A DNA stretch of 41,205 nt from a virus. A program made the translations under genes and the position numbers. The DNA lies in the IMG/VR virus record IMGVR_UViG_3300027976_000081, positions 1 through 41,205 of that record; one strand, given 5' to 3'. The notes below the pieces were generated by a model. The model was not told where the DNA came from and searched no databases. It worked only from the letters and a program-made list of their open reading frames with translations. Positions 26,438-38,130 of this stretch are shown in pieces; within the stretch, counting starts at the first letter, position 1, and each line of letters starts with the position of its first letter.

Positions 26438-28510
26438 TTATCCTGCTGTCATGCCAGTTGGCGCCATAGCAGGCTCTGGTGCTGGAGGTAGAACTGAGTC
26501 AACGCCAGGTAGTGGTGCTCCAGCAGTATCAGTCGTAGGATTCATAATATCTACGCCCCGTCCTGCTATCTCCATCATTTCTAATTGAGCTTCGGCCTCA
26601 TGGACTGGATCTGGCTGGTATCCAGCTTTAAGTTCCATCTGCGCCTTCGTGTGAGCTGTAGCGTCTTTGTAGTTGATGACGGCGATATCTTTAACCTGTT
26701 CTTCTTGTTGCTTAGGCTTAGCAAGGAGTTTATTAAATGCTTCATCAGTAAGAGTTGGGTCAAGTTTCTGCATCATCCAGCGCTTAATCTCAGCTGGTTC
26801 GAATACCTGGTGTGGATCATCAGTAAGTATTTCATAAATCTGGTTGTCTTTCTGACCAACTTCCATCTGTTTCTGCTTGATAGTAGTATCAAGTTGTACA
26901 TGGGCTTCCCATTCGCCGCCGTACTCCCAAGGATCGAAGTCTTTGAAGAACACGCCATTCTTACCGACAATACGCATTGCAGTTTCTTTGGTGACAAATA
27001 TTTGTACCATTTTGAAGATAATAGTACCGAGCTGAGCATAGCCTTCGTTCTCAAGGTTCTGTAGCTTAGTAGCAAACCGCTGTTGAGCCTGCTGTAGCTG
27101 TGTTGATACTTCAGTAGCAGTTGTACGGCTATTTCCTGTTGCACCACCCTGGACGGCTGCGTCTGCGGCTGTGGCACGACGCATACGTTCCATAATACGA
27201 TCTTCTTTGTTATCTATGTCAGTAGACAGTTGAGGTCGTTCAAGCGCACCCATAGCGTTACGAGGGATTGGGTAGACTGCACCAGGTATAGTTTCAATCT
27301 CTGGTGCTAAGTCTGCAAACTGTGGGTCGATCCAATACATAGGAGTATTTTGGTAAGCATTGTTGTCAACCTGCATAGATTCATAATCATTTAACAGTTC
27401 AGCATCATAGATAAGTAGTGCCATCTCACCTTCAGCATAGAATTGTGAGCTATCAATGTAATCTCTGAGGACAACATAAGGTAGGAATGGTTCAATTTCA
27501 TCAAGTTTCTGTTCAACTTCCATTGGTGGTAGTGGTGGAGCAGATGGGTCCATAGAACCTGTTGGGTCGTCAACCATGACTTTTTTAGTCATTTCTTCAC
27601 GCTTACACCAAGTTTCTTCGTCGTAGATAAATTCCTTGCGGTTTCCAACCTCATAGATGCGGCCAGTCATAAGATCATGTAATTGGATAACGTGAACCTG
27701 GCGCTTAGTAGCTTCATCACCAAGAGTAGACCCAGAGAACGCATCTTTCATTGCCTTGTCCATGCCCTTGTTGTCGCCACTATCTTTGCCTTTAGCGGTA
27801 TCAAAACCAATCGTTGCTAGATTCTTATAGCGTGGAACCCAAGCAGCTTTATCAGCATCATATATCTTCTCGCGTTCAAGAACAGTTTTATCTTGCAAGT
27901 ATTCATAGCCAGCATAACGAGCTGGAGTAAGTGTATGGACTAGCCCATTACTGGCAGGATCAACGAAGAAGTCCCTGAGAGGGATATTAAAGATAAATGG
28001 CTTGCCTTTTTTCCATTCAACACCAAGGATACCAGTACCGTAGAGAAGCATGTCTCGTACCCATTGTTGGTTCTTGAGGCCGATGTTATTACACACCATG
28101 TAGTAGTCAAGCATTTCATTGAGTATTTCAGTATCATTTGATTGTTCTTCGTTGGTCTGTACGAAACTGAACGTAGGGTTTCCACCAGCGATATTAGCTA
28201 CTAGTGTTTCGATAATAGTGTGAGATTCACGGATAACAGGATCAGATACGCCTTCGTAGTTTCGAATAACGCGCTGTCCTTTATAAACTTTAAAATAATT
28301 ATCCCAGTTAGTACGATGTCCAGTGTCGATATACTTCTTAGCATCATCATACATCTTCAAGACTTGTTCAAGAGTGAGTCTACCCTCGGCGTCGGCTTGT
28401 TTTGTGCGCTGCTCTTGCTGCCTTTCGTCTTCTGACGGCTTCGACGTTTCCTGTCCGTATGCTGGTTCCTGCGGCGATTTCTTCAAGGCTGGTTCTACTA
28501 CTGGTGGCAT
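26438..28510 (-). CDS. Portal protein
   Basis: The product is 690 aa, in the range of P22/SU10-type portals. After a disordered acidic/Gln-rich start (residues about 1-45), the body shows portal features: LTLEQVLKMYDDAKKYIDTG, NWDNYFKVYKGQRVIRNYEG, SHTIIETLVANIAGGNPTFS, a WVRDMLLYGTGILGVEWKKG strand-helix, FIFNIPLRDFFVDPAS, and a C-terminal helical barrel (TATEVSTQLQQAQQRFATKL). It sits between TerL and scaffold, as expected. The first about 44 codons overlap the end of TerL (28380-28510) in another frame. The ribosome site AAAGAGAAATAAAA is modest. Twelve copies form the DNA gate. Confidence 0.85.
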   Translation of the reverse strand: MPPVVEPALKKSPQEPAYGQETSKPSEDERQQEQRTKQADAEGRLTLEQVLKMYDDAKKYIDTGHRTNWDNYFKVYKGQRVIRNYEGVSDPVIRESHTIIETLVANIAGGNPTFSFVQTNEEQSNDTEILNEMLDYYMVCNNIGLKNQQWVRDMLLYGTGILGVEWKKGKPFIFNIPLRDFFVDPASNGLVHTLTPARYAGYEYLQDKTVLEREKIYDADKAAWVPRYKNLATIGFDTAKGKDSGDNKGMDKAMKDAFSGSTLGDEATKRQVHVIQLHDLMTGRIYEVGNRKEFIYDEETWCKREEMTKKVMVDDPTGSMDPSAPPLPPMEVEQKLDEIEPFLPYVVLRDYIDSSQFYAEGEMALLIYDAELLNDYESMQVDNNAYQNTPMYWIDPQFADLAPEIETIPGAVYPIPRNAMGALERPQLSTDIDNKEDRIMERMRRATAADAAVQGGATGNSRTTATEVSTQLQQAQQRFATKLQNLENEGYAQLGTIIFKMVQIFVTKETAMRIVGKNGVFFKDFDPWEYGGEWEAHVQLDTTIKQKQMEVGQKDNQIYEILTDDPHQVFEPAEIKRWMMQKLDPTLTDEAFNKLLAKPKQQEEQVKDIAVINYKDATAHTKAQMELKAGYQPDPVHEAEAQLEMMEIAGRGVDIMNPTTDTAGAPLPGVDSVLPPAPEPAMAPTGMTAG

Positions 28511-31349
28511 TTTTATTTCTCTTTATAGGTTTAGATATGTTTTCTTTTGCGTATTCAGCATTCACTGAATTGAAATCCGTCATTTGTAAAGCGATTGCCT
28601 TAGCGATTACAGTGTCGTCGTACATACCTTCTTGGGCGTTTGTGTGACCCTGATCATCACGGACGTATGTCATACATTCACGAATGAATACTATGTCCAA
28701 GTCAATTATATCATTATCGCGAATGGCTTGCACTAAATTGTTAATGATTATAGGCTTGGTTTTTCGGTTTGTCTGCCATCCCATCAGTGCAGTACGTTCC
28801 TGGAACTGCTGTTCTTCAGAGGTTTTACGCATGTATAAGTTTCGGTAGAATTTATTGCGCAGATGCTGGACAGTAGTGAGCCCGTGGTTATTAACCTCGA
28901 CACCCACCAAAGCAGTACCGTAGAACGTTCCGATATTGAACGTAACACCACCGAGTAAATCAGGATCTATATGGCCGCGCCAGCGAGCAACAGTCTTTAA
29001 ATCACTTTGACGCGTGACATCTATAGCTGAGTAGTCATTCTTCTTTTCTGAGCTTTCAGTGTTGAGGATACCCTCAGAAACATCTACACCAATACAATAC
29101 TTCTCATTCTTCTCTGGCAAATCCCAAATCTTGAGTGGAGTTGGGTCTTGGTCTTGGAATGTTTTTGGAACCTCATTGAATATATATTTTTGTTCAGATG
29201 TCTCATCAGGGTTGCGAACAACTTCGCCAAACATAGGCGGTTCAGTCTTGAGCGACGACTGAGCAAACTGTTCCATCTTGACAAGCGCACCAATGTCGAA
29301 TACAGGGCGTCCACTAGATAGGAAGGCTTCCATGTCGTCCTTAGGGTACTCCTGGTAGAACTTCTTAGGATCAGAGCGGAACTCTTTCTTCTTCTCTCGC
29401 CTCCACATAATCTTACGATTATAGCTGGCGATTGGGTAGCCCTTCTCTTTAAATATATCTATAAGACCTTTTTCTTCTTCGTCGTATATCATCACATCAT
29501 CAGCAGGGAATTCGTATTCAGAGTGTTCATGCCAAGCAAAGAACAGAGGCTTAAAGGCAGATTCACCCTTCTTAGCAAACTGCCATTCATCATAAAAGAA
29601 TCCACCAACACCATTCGCGGTGCTCTCCAAGAAAGCGAACGTATTACCCGCCATAGGAATAGCCTGGATAGCACTAGATACCACATCAGCCTTAGCTTCC
29701 CAGAAGGCAACTTCGGAGTTAGATACTACGCCTGATGGTGTTTCAAAATTATGGTCAGGATGGCCTATCTCTATATCATAAGTTTCTGCTGTTTCGAATA
29801 CACCAACTGACTTAACTCGGACAAAACATTGGCCATCTATAAATTTGTACTTAGAGCTTTTCCCGTTACAGAACGAATTAGTCCATATCGGCTTAGAGGG
29901 TACCCCATATCGTTCGCGCTCTGAGTAGTGAAGTGACCCATGGACACCGCGCATATCGCCAATGCGGTTTATATTGCGAGCTATCTTCTCATGAATACTT
30001 GGCGCTCGTTCTCGCTGTGCATCGGTTTTACTACCATCGCCATCCATATAACCTCGGTAGATGCCTTTAAAGAAACTTTGATTACCAAACAGAGGAACAT
30101 GTTTATCCGATACTCTACCACACAGCTCATTCAAAGCATTGGCCATGAACACACTACTAAACACACTACGCTTTCTATTACCCTCAATAATATATTTTGG
30201 AGCATTGGGGAAGAATTTGTTGATACTCTCACAGAATTTCTCTGTTGTTTCATAGGTAAAAGTAATTCGTCCAAGTTTTTTATCAATATGTCCTTCTGCT
30301 AAGTAATAGCCTACTAGATAGCCAAAGTCTTCATTAAGCATGAACCTTTCTGAAGATTGACGGCTTGTACCCCCGTTCTGGGGCCTAGGAAGTAGGGGAA
30401 GATCAAAAGCCCACATCTCTTTATGTTCGAAACTATATTTTGGTTTAGCTATCCAGTCTTTAGAAGTTATATTAGAGAGTTTTTTGTAACCGTCCTCAGT
30501 AAAAATTTTATGGTCTGCGCTAGCTATTATAGGTTCATTTGCCATCCAAGTATTGAGCTTATAAGTCTTCTTAACCCCAGTCATTGTTTTAGCGGTCACA
30601 GGAGCTATAGCACCAGAAGATGTAAAGACTTTATCTCCTAACACAATGTCTTTGATTGGTTTAGAAGCTCCATCTGCTAAAACAACTAAAGAGTCTTTAT
30701 GCAAACACCCGTGGAAGAAGTGGATGGTAGCAGAACGCCCCTTGCCCTCTTTTGCTACAAGCGTCTGGATCTGACTACTTAGTCCTGGTGATTTATGGAG
30801 TTGTCCACAGCTCTCTGGGCTGGTGCAAGAAGCAATATGTTCTTTAATTTGATCCTTGACATTTTCCTCAACATCAAATACCAGCTCTTTCTTGGTGTTA
30901 TATTTACGCCTCGGCTGGAAAGTAGGATGACAGTTGTCGAAGTATCTCTTAAACATTTCATAAAGGTTCTCAGAAGCCTTGACCTCATGCGCAATAATTA
31001 CTGTCTTGATGTTCTTATGCGTCGTAGTCCACCAGAAACCGAGTGCTTCTATGACGGTAGACAAGCCCATCTGACGAGCTTTCAAGATAATATAGCGAAC
31101 TGGCTTTCCATGCGCTATATCGTCTACCACCCGCTCCACAAGCATCTGCTGAGCCCAGTTAGGCTTAAAGGGAACTATAGTACCGCTGATCTTGTCCTGA
31201 ATCATCAGGTTACGTTCACAGTAAATATAGAAATCAGCCGCTATCACCTTAATTGCAGCTCTTAATTGGTCAGTAGGCCCAAGGCTTGGGTAGTTTTCTA
31301 TCCGACTTCTTACCAGAGTTCTTGTGTCTTCGGCGAGTTCTTGGGCCAT
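28380..31349 (-). CDS. terL: Terminase large subunit interrupted by an intein
   Basis: The frame is 989 aa, of which 330 are intein (listed separately), leaving a 659-aa TerL. ATPase motifs: Walker A-like LKARQMGLST (89-98), Walker B region split as IHFFHG / SEVAFWE (209-214 and 545-551), coupling motif FLESTANG (573-580). RNase H-like nuclease acids: GVDVSEG (D756), VGVEVNNHG (E818) and YDDTVIAKAIA (D911/D912). It pumps DNA into the procapsid through the portal and cuts the concatemer. The C-terminus is basic (KAARAAHKTSRRRG) and overlaps the portal gene by 131 nt. The start overlaps the RHH gene upstream. Confidence 0.9.
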   Translation of the reverse strand: MAQELAEDTRTLVRSRIENYPSLGPTDQLRAAIKVIAADFYIYCERNLMIQDKISGTIVPFKPNWAQQMLVERVVDDIAHGKPVRYIILKARQMGLSTVIEALGFWWTTTHKNIKTVIIAHEVKASENLYEMFKRYFDNCHPTFQPRRKYNTKKELVFDVEENVKDQIKEHIASCTSPESCGQLHKSPGLSSQIQTLVAKEGKGRSATIHFFHGCLHKDSLVVLADGASKPIKDIVLGDKVFTSSGAIAPVTAKTMTGVKKTYKLNTWMANEPIIASADHKIFTEDGYKKLSNITSKDWIAKPKYSFEHKEMWAFDLPLLPRPQNGGTSRQSSERFMLNEDFGYLVGYYLAEGHIDKKLGRITFTYETTEKFCESINKFFPNAPKYIIEGNRKRSVFSSVFMANALNELCGRVSDKHVPLFGNQSFFKGIYRGYMDGDGSKTDAQRERAPSIHEKIARNINRIGDMRGVHGSLHYSERERYGVPSKPIWTNSFCNGKSSKYKFIDGQCFVRVKSVGVFETAETYDIEIGHPDHNFETPSGVVSNSEVAFWEAKADVVSSAIQAIPMAGNTFAFLESTANGVGGFFYDEWQFAKKGESAFKPLFFAWHEHSEYEFPADDVMIYDEEEKGLIDIFKEKGYPIASYNRKIMWRREKKKEFRSDPKKFYQEYPKDDMEAFLSSGRPVFDIGALVKMEQFAQSSLKTEPPMFGEVVRNPDETSEQKYIFNEVPKTFQDQDPTPLKIWDLPEKNEKYCIGVDVSEGILNTESSEKKNDYSAIDVTRQSDLKTVARWRGHIDPDLLGGVTFNIGTFYGTALVGVEVNNHGLTTVQHLRNKFYRNLYMRKTSEEQQFQERTALMGWQTNRKTKPIIINNLVQAIRDNDIIDLDIVFIRECMTYVRDDQGHTNAQEGMYDDTVIAKAIALQMTDFNSVNAEYAKENISKPIKRNKNATSSRTSLEEIAAGTSIRTGNVEAVRRRKAARAAHKTSRRRG
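29718..30707 (-). mobile_element. Intein with LAGLIDADG endonuclease inside TerL
   Basis: It runs from TerL residue C215 to N544 (330 aa). Splicing blocks: Cys1 with CLHKDSLVVLADGASKPIKD; block B as ASADHKIFTEDGY (277-280 SADH); block F AETYDIEIGHPDHNF; block G GVVSN ending in N544, with Ser545 as the +1 nucleophile. The penultimate residue is Ser543 rather than the usual His. Homing endonuclease motifs YLVGYYLAEG (344-353) and IYRGYMDGDG (430-439) both keep acidic residues, so the enzyme may be active. Removal rebuilds FFHGSEVAFW. It selfishly targets an essential conserved site. Confidence 0.92.
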
Positions 31350-31612
31350 TTGTTCGTCCTTTTCTGAGTTAGCTTATCTTGGGGGTATTTATCGTTAAAT
31401 TCGTCCTTGACATCTTCTATTTTTCTAGTCATGTTAAATTTATCAGGCTGAGCCTCTGCAAGCATAGCCCAAGCCATTATACTTGGCGCCTGGTCAAGTG
31501 CTATTTGTATGAAGTTACTGAGATTATCAATATCCTTAGCAATCTTGACGTACTTAGGCGGCAACCAAATGCCTACACGCTTCCCAGAAACGAGAGGTTT
31601 CGGCCTTGACAT
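31310..31612 (-). CDS. Ribbon-helix-helix DNA-binding protein candidate, 100 aa
   Basis: The N-terminal region (KRVGIWLPPKYVKIAKDIDN) reads as a beta strand followed by two helices (DNLSNFIQIALDQ), the pattern of RHH proteins (Arc/MetJ/CopG type). The C-terminal half is polar and basic. The stop overlaps the TerL start by 40 nt, and its start abuts the stop of the RecA-like gene at 31612. It may be a packaging factor, a late regulator, or the protein that reads the TTAGCGTAAA repeats about 1.1-2 kb away; RHH proteins often bind such arrays. Domain call moderate; target inferred. Confidence 0.55.
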   Translation of the reverse strand: MSRPKPLVSGKRVGIWLPPKYVKIAKDIDNLSNFIQIALDQAPSIMAWAMLAEAQPDKFNMTRKIEDVKDEFNDKYPQDKLTQKRTNKWPKNSPKTQELW

Positions 31613-32598
31613 TAGAACGCTGGTTTCCCAGCCTCCTCAATTACTTCAGTCTCTACAGGATTTGGGTAGTGCAGCTTAAAGGTAGCACTACGCCAAGGAT
31701 TATTGACCTTGCTTTTAATTATTGTAGCGGTGACTTCGTGGCCGAGGTAGATATGTCTTTTTGCACCCTGCTTAGCAACAGGATAGCGAGCTGATTTGGT
31801 CGTTTTAAGCTGAATAAGTAGGCTAGCAGCGTATGGGACTGCGTTCCCTCCAGGCGTATATTTTTCGGGGTAATAGGTTCCAATTTTGTCCCTCTCTTGG
31901 TTAATTATTACAAATGCAGTGTTGGTCCGTTTAAAGTCCATCTGCGTCATGTGTATCATTTTATGTGTGAAGAAGGCTTTTTGTCCAATATTCCTATCAG
32001 TCAACTTGCCCTCAGTCTCGGCCTTCGTAGTAGTACTGGCCAGTGAATCAAAGATGACCATCTCATAATCACCAGAAGAAGCGGCCTTCTTAATCACTTC
32101 TACAATATCCTCCATGTCGGCAGAACCATTGTACAAATGGAATTTGGTAGCATCGAGCTCCAGATTAGCTAATAGTTCAGGGTTCAGGGACGCCTCAGAG
32201 TCGATGTAAAGCACCTTCTTGTCGCTGAGCCCCTTTATCATATTCAAGCACAAGGTCGTCTTACCGACTCCATATGGCCCCTGGATCTGAGTAATACGCC
32301 CACGAGGTATCTGCGTCAGCGCATCAAAGTCAGATATACCAGTAGAAATCCAATCTACCTTGGCGACCCCCATCTTAATAAAAGCATCAAGGTTTTTCTG
32401 GCGATCATAGGCTTTCTTAACAAGGGTAGGAGTTAAACGCGCCTTCCCACCAAGAATAGTTGAACCGAAAAGGTCCTGTGGGCCGAGCTCGATACCCTGA
32501 GCAGCCTTAACACGACAATTCGTAGAACAGAATTTAGCAGTTGATCGCTTAGCATCAAACTCAACATGGTCATACTCACAATTTTTAATCATCGGCAT
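31612..32598 (-). CDS. RecA-like recombinase with N-terminal zinc finger
   Basis: The product is 328 aa. A putative zinc site lies at C7, H11, C24 and C28 (KFCSTNCRVK). The RecA core has Walker A GPYGVGKTT (107-115), Walker B EMVIFDS (179-185), NQERDKIG (233-240) and a conserved PGGNAVPYAAS (249-259). It should form ATP-dependent filaments on ssDNA or act as an annealing/remodelling ATPase like phage UvsX or Sak4 proteins. It is encoded in the late strand directly before the RHH protein and TerL, not with the recombination cassette. It overlaps the 50-aa gene upstream by 14 nt. Confidence 0.85.
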   Translation of the reverse strand: MPMIKNCEYDHVEFDAKRSTAKFCSTNCRVKAAQGIELGPQDLFGSTILGGKARLTPTLVKKAYDRQKNLDAFIKMGVAKVDWISTGISDFDALTQIPRGRITQIQGPYGVGKTTLCLNMIKGLSDKKVLYIDSEASLNPELLANLELDATKFHLYNGSADMEDIVEVIKKAASSGDYEMVIFDSLASTTTKAETEGKLTDRNIGQKAFFTHKMIHMTQMDFKRTNTAFVIINQERDKIGTYYPEKYTPGGNAVPYAASLLIQLKTTKSARYPVAKQGAKRHIYLGHEVTATIIKSKVNNPWRSATFKLHYPNPVETEVIEEAGKPAF

Positions 32599-32737
32599 GA
32601 TCCAGTAGCATTTGCAGATAATTCATAGTATCCGACAATCGCCTGTTAGGTTGCTCTACGGCCAAATCTTCCAAGTATGCAACAGTAATCTCAATTGCAT
32701 TAAATGTCCTATCATTCATTGGTAATTCTGTACCCAC
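32585..32737 (-). CDS. Small acidic helical protein, first gene of the leftward block, 50 aa (GTG)
   Basis: GTG 32737 follows AAGGAGCTGAAAA on the minus strand. The product (GTELPMNDRTFNAIEITVAY, ending LLDHADD) is acidic and helical. An internal ATG (MNDRTF) lacks a site at good distance. The AAGGAG partly overlaps the first copy of the repeat TTTACGCTAA (32749-32758), so repeat binding could affect its translation or transcription. Its stop overlaps the RecA-like start by 14 nt. Possible antirepressor, RecA modulator or head-packaging adaptor; unknown. Confidence 0.6.
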   Translation of the reverse strand: MGTELPMNDRTFNAIEITVAYLEDLAVEQPNRRLSDTMNYLQMLLDHADD

Positions 32738-32748
32738 TTTTCAGCTCC

Positions 32749-32961
32749 TTAGCGTAAATTGTTAATGCTCTTAGCGTAAATCCTTAGCGTAAAAATAGCA
32801 AGCTCTTAGCGTAAAGAATCGCCTTAGCGTAAATGATAAATCGACAGGGAGTGAGTATTCACGACCTGGAGAACCCCATAACTGTAATTTTTTTAGAATA
32901 TTTTTTAGCGTAATAACAGTTAGCGTAAAAAATTAGCGTAAATTAAAATAATTAGCGTAAA
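32749..32961 (+). repeat. Nine copies of TTAGCGTAAA (left half of inverted array)
   Basis: Starts at 32749, 32771, 32784, 32806, 32824, 32905 (last base T), 32920, 32933 and 32952. The first five are preceded by C-rich flanks (GCTC, CTCC), the last four by A/T. Spacings range from 13 to 22 bp with one 81-bp gap. Transcribed leftward they would form UUUACGCUAA copies in the 5' leader of the late block. Possible functions: operators, replication iterons, partition or packaging site. Confidence 0.95.
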
Positions 32962-32969
32962 AATAATAT

Positions 32970-33238
32970 TAGTTAGAGGGGGTGCGTTGGTACCGTAACG
33001 TCTCATTCTATCTCATATACACACCAGCAAGGCGCTCACCTCAGTCGGGACTACCCCCCTACCCCCACCCCCCTGTACTGCCTTGTATCAATGTATCAAT
33101 AACTTATTAACTTACTACATCATATATGTATGTATATGTATAGTACTACATATAGCGTATACATATAGCACTATGCAATTAAGCGTAACATAACAGGGGT
33201 GGCATACGTCGTACAATGTGTAATGTGCGCCATGCATC
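32970..33238. other. AT-rich core and C-rich tract between the two repeat halves
   Basis: No gene is visible. The C-runs at 33054-33059, 33062-33066 and 33068-33073 give a G-quadruplex-capable minus strand. The segment 33085-33180 is AT-rich with TGTATCAATGTATCAAT and a near-palindrome TATGTATAGTACTACATA; it could be a DNA unwinding region. Weak relatives of the repeat appear at about 33151 and 33179. Together with the flanking repeats this looks like an origin or a regulatory centre. Confidence 0.55.
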
Positions 33239-33342
33239 TTTACGCTAAGGGGTATATATACCCAACTTCTTTACGCTAAGCCCGTATACAGGCTTAGAAT
33301 GCGTCATATTTACGCTAAGCATTACGCTGATCTTTACGCTAA
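33239..33342 (-). repeat. Five copies of TTAGCGTAAA in opposite orientation (right half)
   Basis: On the plus strand these read TTTACGCTAA at 33239, 33270, 33309 and 33333, with a variant ATTACGCTGA at 33321. The last copy abuts the stop codon of the gene 33343-33723. The copies face the nine on the left, forming a large imperfect dyad centred near 33.05 kb. Confidence 0.93.
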
Positions 33343-33723
33343 CTATTCTAGTACTGATTCAATAGTGATGTTCAGGTTTTTGTTCTCTGACCTCTGTACA
33401 GCCTTGCCCCGTAGGTGTTCAATAGCGAAGTGTGAATTCTTTGTAGCAATGCGTTCGTCCACACTGTTCACCATAACTCCCACCCTCTTAATAGCATCAA
33501 CTCCTATCTGTTGTAGCTCTGTCTCTATATAATCCAACGGTGTCTCTAGTTCCTCTTTTTTTCGTATTTTCCAAGCCCTTTCACCTTTATTCAATATAGT
33601 TGGTGTTTGAACTGCTACGGCTTTACTACCATTACCCTCTGACAACTCTAGTGCTTTGAATTGTGCAATAACTCTTGGTGTTATTCTGTTGTATTGCCTG
33701 GGCTTCTTAGATTCTATACTCAT
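33343..33723 (-). CDS. Small terminase subunit candidate
   Basis: The product is 126 aa: a basic N-terminus with a possible helix-turn-helix (KPRQYNRITPRVIAQFKALE), a central helical part (PLDYIETELQQIGVDAIKRV), and a C-terminal pattern NSHFAIEHLRGKAVQRSENK ending LNITIESVLE. The end, with HLRGKAVQR followed by a short acidic strand, recalls small terminase proteins of Gram-positive phages. It is on the late strand but separated from TerL by the RecA-like and RHH genes and by the repeat array, which it abuts; small terminase genes often carry or border the packaging site. A different DNA-binding protein remains possible. Confidence 0.5.
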   Translation of the reverse strand: MSIESKKPRQYNRITPRVIAQFKALELSEGNGSKAVAVQTPTILNKGERAWKIRKKEELETPLDYIETELQQIGVDAIKRVGVMVNSVDERIATKNSHFAIEHLRGKAVQRSENKNLNITIESVLE

Positions 33724-33834: not shown

Positions 33835-33864
33835 ATTATACCACGCCTACCCCTGTTACAACAA
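33835..33864 (-). promoter_or_regulatory. Possible leftward promoter upstream of the terminase-small candidate
   Basis: On the minus strand TTGTTG (33859-33864), an 18-nt spacer and TATAAT (33835-33840) are seen, with a poor -35. A second GGTATAAT (33730-33735) lies right before the start codon. It stands back to back with P3 at 33892, so a divergent control region is likely. Confidence 0.45.
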
Positions 33865-33891: not shown

Positions 33892-33920
33892 TTGACATAC
33901 GGCCTATAGTTTGCTAATAT
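33892..33920 (+). promoter_or_regulatory. Early sigma70-type promoter P3 (main early arm)
   Basis: TTGACA (33892-33897), a 17-nt spacer holding CCTATAGTTTG and TAATAT (33915-33920) are seen, with extended -10 TG. It is the first promoter of the rightward arm and belongs to the conserved-spacer family. Confidence 0.9.
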
Positions 33921-34167: not shown

Positions 34168-34283
34168 TGAACATATTCACAATTAAGCACTATCAAACAC
34201 CTAATAAGATCATATTTAAAACATTCAAGACTGTTGCATACTTCGGTAGTGCAATACTTTTCGGACAACTAATAATTAAGTAA
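34167..34283 (+). CDS. Small basic/hydrophobic protein, 38 aa
   Basis: The start is in a TAATG overlap. The N-terminus is basic and Phe-rich (MNIFTIKHYQTPNKIIFKTF), then comes a hydrophobic stretch (VAYFGSAILFGQLII). It may be a single-pass membrane peptide. It is followed by AAAGGAGTT, the site of the next gene. Unknown function. Confidence 0.55.
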   Translation: MNIFTIKHYQTPNKIIFKTFKTVAYFGSAILFGQLIIK

Positions 34284-37458: not shown

Positions 37459-38130
37459 ATGTCAAAATCAATATCAATGGACTTTGAGCTAGCAAAAGAG
37501 CTAGGGTTAGCACCAGCGCTGGTGTTTAACGAGTTAAGCTTCTGGTGCACCAGGGGCAAAAGAGAAGATGGTTGGGTTTATAAATCTTATAAAGAAATGA
37601 TGGGTAGATTGCCATTATCTGAAAGCACCATAAGAAGATCCTATAATGTTTTAATAGCAGCTAAATTGATAGAAACTAAAGTAATGAAAGTGGACGAAAA
37701 GCCTACTTTTCATTACAAATTGACCGAAACTATAGAATCAGCCAAATTGACTGGTACTATAGAATCAGCCAAATTGACCGAAACTATTAATACAGTAATT
37801 AACAACAGTAAGAGTGCACCAAAACAAAAAGAAGAGAATCCACCAAAACAAAAAGAAGAAGAATTATTACTTTTGGTGAATAAGATTACTGGAAGGAATT
37901 TCAGAGTTTTTGGAATTAAGAGTGGAGTAAAGAAATTACTGAATACTTTTTCTATGGTGGAAATAGAATCCGCACTTTCCGCGCTCGCAAATGATGATTG
38001 GCATAAAGATAAAATTAAAACATTCAGTGTTGATTATTTTATTAGATCCACGACAATAGACCGATTCTTGGAGATCCACAACAAAAACAATTACCGCGAC
38101 CCGCGAGTGTGGGGAGACAAGAATGTCTAA
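37459..38130 (+). CDS. Replication initiator/organiser candidate with winged helix
   Basis: The product is 223 aa. The N-terminus (MDFELAKELGLAPALVFNEL; YKEMMGRLPLSESTIRRSYN) is a winged-helix DNA-binding domain as in DnaD/RepA-like phage replisome organisers. A linker has three copies of a 9-aa unit (LTETIESAK type) and a Lys/Gln/Glu-rich stretch. The C-terminal domain (NFRVFGIKSGVKKLLNTFSM; ALANDDWHKDKIKTFSVDYF) resembles a DnaD/helicase-loading part ending DYF-x3-T. It lies directly before the replicative helicase and primase genes with an 8-nt overlap. Role in origin binding and helicase loading is inferred. Confidence 0.7.
   Translation: MSKSISMDFELAKELGLAPALVFNELSFWCTRGKREDGWVYKSYKEMMGRLPLSESTIRRSYNVLIAAKLIETKVMKVDEKPTFHYKLTETIESAKLTGTIESAKLTETINTVINNSKSAPKQKEENPPKQKEEELLLLVNKITGRNFRVFGIKSGVKKLLNTFSMVEIESALSALANDDWHKDKIKTFSVDYFIRSTTIDRFLEIHNKNNYRDPRVWGDKNV
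37717..37788 (+). repeat. 27-bp tandem repeat inside the initiator gene
   Basis: Two full units (37717-37743 and 37744-37770) and a partial third (37771-37788) encode LTETIESAK-like units between the DNA-binding and C-terminal domains. In several phages (for example lambda O and Gram-positive replisome organisers) the origin lies as iterons in exactly this linker. It may therefore be the replication origin or part of it. Confidence 0.9.

Follow-up and report, generated by a model that had tools for sequence, protein, structure and literature searches.

A conserved, lineage-drifting repeat array beside a dif-like palindrome at the late-operon start of a podophage family

What might a phage do with fourteen copies of one short sequence packed into a 600-bp hub between its genes? 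The question is raised by IMG/VR virus record IMGVR_UViG_3300027976_000081, analysed here over positions 1 to 41,205 (41,205 nt, hereafter the window). Profile searches identify the record as podophage-like, with an SU10-like portal, a large terminase subunit (TerL), a RecA/UvsX-like recombinase, a DnaD-like initiator, a helicase, a primase and lysis genes; no tRNA was found in the window. The late genes run leftward and the early genes rightward from a divergence point near 33.8–34.1 kb, and a good match to a sigma70-like early promoter (TTGACA-17-TAATAT, 33892–33920, + strand) stands at the start of the rightward genes. The array proves to be a genuine, conserved, lineage-drifting set of putative DNA sites at the start of the late operon, and its hub includes a host-type Xer-like site as well.

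The repeat array and its hub

Allowing one mismatch, TTAGCGTAAA occurs 17 times in the whole 41-kb window against 3.98 expected, a count reached in none of 100 shuffles. Thirteen of these 17 matches fall within 32749–33342, where inspection of the open reading frames gave no convincing gene, bearing out the fourteen-copy array in a non-coding hub that the first-pass annotation had described. The total of 14 comprises 12 exact copies and 2 variants, of which nine have one orientation and five the opposite one. The recA-side array (32749–32961, + strand) has copies at 32749, 32771, 32784, 32806, 32824, 32905, 32920, 32933 and 32952, all exact except the one at 32905, which reads TTAGCGTAAT. The terS-side array (33239–33342, − strand) has exact copies at 33239, 33270, 33309 and 33333, and a two-mismatch variant, TTACGCTGA, at 33322–33330, which is counted as the fourteenth. 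The earlier tally had the nine-to-five split and the variant at 33322 right and left the variant at 32905 unmentioned.

Read on the coding (−) strand, the recA-side copies are TTTACGCTAA and point towards recA. The first overlaps AAGGAG, the Shine–Dalgarno (SD) sequence of the first small gene of the recA operon (32585–32737, −, read from the sequence; GTG start at 32737), and the last copy of the terS-side array abuts the stop of a terS-like open reading frame (33343–33723, −). Both placements had been reported, as had the AT-rich region and C-rich tract between the two halves (the latter at 33052–33073, a G-tract on the coding − strand), and all of these are present. The recA operon includes the RecA/UvsX-like recombinase (31612–32598, −), the anchor gene of the phage family, and a ribbon-helix-helix (RHH)-like protein (31310–31612, −) encoded between recA and terL. 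The RecA-like protein carries an N-terminal C..F..C..C cysteine motif, largely kept in 16 aligned relatives, that resembles a small zinc-binding module.

Relatives were collected by RecA, TerS and RHH searches, and 15 podophage genomes, window included, form the comparison set. Among the relatives are MW202692.1 (Manatee Spring), with 80% TerL identity over the matched pieces, many IMG/VR contigs, and two contigs found in metagenome-assembled genomes (MAGs), one of Saccharibacteria (L037) and one of Dependentiae (L038). The hub is conserved across all 15, between the small-terminase-like gene and the recA–terL operon, and the motif is kept at the equivalent place on the recA side, which answers the earlier suggestion to look for the 10-mer in related phages. 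Where hubs are readable, their order is terS-like gene, variable repeats, palindrome, AT-rich DNA, usually the G-tract, T-rich DNA, repeats and first recA-operon gene. The G-tract is strong in most relatives, 110–210 bp beyond the dif-like palindrome described below, and went undetected in L016 and L039 by the measure used.

The motif drifts by lineage yet remains in the hub, its generic form being TGTYACRCTWA. The window shares TTTACGCTAA with L014 and L038; TGTTACGCTAA is the motif of L016, L019, L020 (with variants), L021, L022, L023, L024 and L037; and further lineages carry TGTCACGCTAA (L040), TGTCCCGCTAA (L026), TGTCACACTTA (L015) and TGTTACATTTA (L011). In L039, TGTCACAGATA occurs beside TGTTACGCTAA; a single hub of that genome (5680–5830) holds copies of TGTTACGCTAA and TGTCACAGATAA, possibly a motif in transition. 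Ten of the 15 genomes have exact copies nowhere but in the hub or at the recA start, and the other five each have one copy elsewhere. When 2.9 million viral contigs were scanned for pairs of GTTACGCTAA, three contigs matched, all of them family members. The same scan with TTTACGCTAA also gave three, one being the window's own phage; the other two (L136 and L137) were rejected as hubs, being coding-region look-alikes without terS, RHH gene or dif-like site.

The inverted layout stressed in the first reading is present in the window, and it varies in the family. Inverted terS-side copies are a feature of the window, L014, L015, L016 and L020; L038 has them in direct orientation, L021 mainly so, and in others they are scarce or lacking. 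The inverted arrangement is not essential, and the recA side is the constant part.

Late-operon control and the packaging alternative

The reading that we favour, tentatively and at rather less than an even chance, is that the array comprises operator or promoter sites of the late operon, bound by a phage-encoded protein. It draws first on geometry. A copy with NNN[CT]AT directly after it was seen in 13 of the 15 genomes, in about 11 of them at a gene start, usually that of the operon's first gene, and most such YAT-linked copies have a partner 13 bp upstream (at 14 bp in L014 and 10 bp in L037, lacking in L021). At other offsets YAT recurs mostly in one to five genomes, the exceptions being offset 16, an echo of the 13-bp partner, and offset 4 (seven genomes). 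The window's putative late-promoter box (32762–32793, −) consists of two copies 13 bp apart, GAG and then CATTAA. In most genomes the recA-side copies share one orientation. Extra copies also stand directly before recA, 1.7–2.5 kb from the hub, in L021 and L039, and groups of the motif precede two successive small genes in L037, a distribution that fits control at gene starts.

A putative phage protein would thus bind the 10-mers and control entry into the late operon (recA–RHH–terL–capsid). The gene-proximal copies would lie just upstream of a presumed transcription start at about 32766 (−); from this position, and from the lack of any −35 consensus at the putative promoter, we infer a regulator-dependent promoter. 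No sigma70-like promoter was reported on the − strand within the array, and a −10 element inside the motif itself (TACGCT) is ruled out, as L026 and L039 lack its key bases. Further copies, including the opposed group 280–590 bp away, may play an auxiliary part, through cooperative binding or looping. Six genomes have an ATG start codon at the YAT box, so a translational signal or a leaderless start may apply there. What counts against a late promoter is that a simple one would not need the copies next to the terS stop or surrounding the dif-like site, and that no activator family was recognised for it.

Regulated phage late promoters, such as those served by phi29 p4 and P2 Ogr, have an activator-bound upstream site and a weak −35. 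The array resembles them in site-like repeats whose distance to the presumed start downstream would be short and fixed, and in having no −35 consensus. It differs in its 14 copies, spread in both orientations over 600 bp, in a motif not common to those systems and in an activator that is only putative. If active, these sites would allow gene control to be tested in phages of epibionts that are difficult to grow.

Which protein might bind? The best candidate is the 126-aa product of 33343–33723 (−), a possible small terminase subunit (TerS). We ran 12 Mantel tests of motif distance against protein distance over up to 15 related genomes. The TerS N terminus gave r = 0.38 (p = 0.005), or 0.35 (p = 0.012) given TerL, and whole TerS gave 0.37 (p = 0.014), beside 0.32 for portal, 0.32 for capsid, 0.19 (p = 0.042) for RecA and 0.17 for TerL. 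This modest covariation of TerS and motif is a lead only, and since terS is physically linked to the array, co-inheritance could mimic it. The first-pass annotation had also named the RHH protein and the initiator as candidate binders. Neither follows the motif: r is −0.02 for RHH (0.19 for its ribbon region, p = 0.17), leaving it less supported, and −0.01 for the initiator. The motif drift over 15 genomes itself supplies ready-made comparative data with which to seek the binder.

Identification of the 33343–33723 product as TerS is weakly supported, by its predicted structure. The model (mean pLDDT 69.7), built from an alignment of the window and relatives with the L014 sequence left out, shows three helices at the N terminus along with two long ones, and a fold search placed the small terminases of PaP3 and NV1 at ranks 1 and 4, with E values above 1. 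Profile searches do not support the identity. Profile searches of solved structures with RHH and TerS gave only unrelated weak matches, and the RHH model had no matches in the PDB.

These observations also feed the main rival, in which the array is a packaging-initiation site, pac or cosB-like, bound by the adjacent TerS and possibly cleaved in the G-tract block. The array adjoins a terS-like gene in every hub where such a gene was found, its location is near-exclusive to the hub, and the best motif covariation and the helical model both concern TerS. In known phages, pac and cos sites are recognised by TerS, and the pac site of P22 lies inside the terS gene (PMC9611059). The array is like the TerS-bound sites lambda cosB and SPP1 pac in placing repeats beside terS, at a single locus with T-rich and G-rich neighbours; it differs from them in sequence, in its extra copies at gene starts, and in that TerS binding and ends are only putative here. 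Against packaging, the copies track gene starts, including the groups before recA 1.7–2.5 kb away (L021 and L039), several genomes have few terS-side copies or none, and the TerS identity lacks support from profile searches. Nor was a physical genome end seen: five complete relatives have end overlaps of 88–127 bp, as circular assemblies do. Contigs L017, L018 and L028 start near recA, and these starts were rejected as physical ends, since the three contigs pass through other genes at that point. We regard packaging as unlikely, if the strongest competitor to late-operon control. Of the site classes first proposed for the array (origin, partition or pac site), the general DNA-site reading stands, as lineages differ in the sequence they use within a single motif class and, on the terS side, in its orientation; pac is a live rival, and the iteron origin has lost ground.

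The dif-like palindrome and host Xer recombination

Beside the repeats, one hub element is clear in every genome measured, and it had gone unmentioned in the first reading. The palindrome GTCGTACAATGTGTAATGTGCGCC (33208–33231, +) has 5 mismatches to the dif-like consensus searched, GTCGCACAATATACATTTTGCGAC, and the next best match in the genome has 8. The best match lies in the hub in 15 of 15 phages, with 1–6 mismatches against 7–9 for the next best.

The same consensus (at most 3 mismatches) was found in 69 of 80 genomes of the Saccharibacteria class, as a single copy in most, and in 51 of 116 Patescibacteria genomes, some of them Saccharibacteria already counted. In the phylum to which the Dependentiae MAG belongs, one genome out of 34 has it, and there the match is the phage contig itself. 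At the loci read, with genes named from sequence, the chromosomal site lies mostly between convergent genes, often beside ftsQ- or murG-like genes, a setting that rules it out as an operator there. One to three tyrosine recombinases were found in each of five host genomes searched, exactly one in two of them. In two single-contig genomes (G090 and G057) GC skew drops at or just after the site, which is not at the exact antipode of dnaA. Taken on this sequence context, the chromosomal site is probably dif.

The phage family therefore probably infects Saccharibacteria. The link ties an uncultured podophage family to its host by a cis-acting site rather than by co-occurrence. The contig in the Dependentiae MAG (L038) carries a dif-like site that none of the other 33 genomes in that phylum has, so its placement in that MAG is probably a binning error. 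Among the host assemblies, four contigs of G089 (C2, C9, C12 and C13) have several extra dif-like sites, with pairs about 1.3 kb apart on C2 and C9 reminiscent of Xer-flanked modules, and contigs C6 and C7 of G065 (L087 and L088) overlap by exactly 55 bases across a dif-like site, as if the assembly had branched.

The single dif-like site of the hub may serve the host Xer recombinase. No phage tyrosine recombinase (PF00589) was found in 12 records (the window and 11 relatives, several of them fragments), and among the window's open reading frames the sole integrase-named match in PHROGs was partial (E = 0.006), in a protein better matching transglycosylases. It is conceivable, with a chance clearly short of even, that these recombinase-less tailed phages use host Xer through this site, for integration, monomerisation or both, under control of the flanking array. 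Xer-borrowing integrative mobile elements exploiting Xer (IMEX) include Vibrio filamentous and related phages, CTXphi, TLCphi and VGJphi (PMC5357621). As in those phages, the site is single, with palindromic arms and a 6-bp centre, and no recombinase was found. Unlike them, this family is tailed, of about 43 kb, has a phage RecA, keeps the site in a late control hub and shows no integration. The dif/Xer literature also includes a non-tailed vibriophage family and a gokushovirus (PMC9966536 and PMC7062461); no tailed Xer-borrowing phage was found among these search results, which are not a full survey. Nothing was found on Saccharibacteria, phage and dif together in the literature covered, which includes few subscription papers. 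Should the site work, tailed phages would join the viruses known to borrow host Xer recombination.

Could the array itself then serve recombination? As accessory sequences for Xer at the dif-like site, acting in multimer resolution or in integration at host dif, it would have a role like that of the accessory sites in plasmid cer, where ArgR and PepA act in Xer recombination. In the hubs measured, the dif-like site does sit inside the array or next to it, and no tyrosine recombinase was found in the 12 phage records. Several genomes, however, have no terS-side copies, and there are copies a long way from the dif-like site. Moreover, a TerS profile search of 393 Saccharibacteria-class genomes revealed no terS-bearing prophage, its sole match being a phage contig, and integration at host dif was not encountered. 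An accessory role for the array is improbable.

Replication origin and RNA leader

It is similarly hard to sustain that the initiator or the RHH protein binds the array as an iteron replication origin or as a partition site. The hub DNA is AT-rich, G-rich and repeated, and the cumulative GC-skew minimum lies 0–2.8 kb from the hub in seven genomes. The skew turns, however, coincide with changes in gene orientation, which confounds skew as an origin marker. Neither the RHH protein nor the initiator covaries with the motif, and the initiators of the window and L014 differ at their N termini although the two phages have the motif in common. The initiator gene also contains tandem repeats of its own (37716–37864, +; 27 bp × 2.7, then an A-rich 24 bp × 2.2), a better candidate for the replication origin. 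With these repeats, and with N-terminal divergence at an unchanged motif, the hub is not needed as an iteron origin, and the earlier proposal of one is less supported. The lambda origin has its iterons inside gene O. The array is like them in setting repeated short sites beside AT-rich DNA, and unlike a lambda-type origin in not following the initiator, whose gene has the separate, lambda O-like repeats.

An RNA leader, in which UUUACGCUAA repeats would be bound by a protein or would base-pair with the complementary copies on the terS side and so hide the SD, is very improbable: 32747–32758 is an exact 12-nt complement of 33239–33250 and a copy overlaps the SD, but the terS-side copies have the same orientation or are absent in several genomes, and an Rfam search of the hub gave two matches, both far below the gathering score. 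The occurrence of copies in both orientations, together with the drift in sequence, favours DNA over the RNA role first suggested for the late leader.

Three further features were seen nearby. The terminase large subunit (28380–31349, −) has an intein-like insertion, matching PF14890 at residues 231–541 and PF05203 at residues 215–269, both under the curated cut-offs. A perfect 14-nt inverted pair (32673–32686 and 34230–34243) spans 1.5 kb, with one arm inside the first recA-operon gene. Finally, a second operator-like motif has a half-site TAACAGGGG at 33191–33199 (+) and a partner on the other strand at 33850–33858, upstream of the terS promoter-like sites; 14 of the 15 genomes have one or more instances of the motif, CCCCTGTTA/TAACAGGGG, which forms palindromes of the CCTCTGTTATAACAGGGG type in several hubs.
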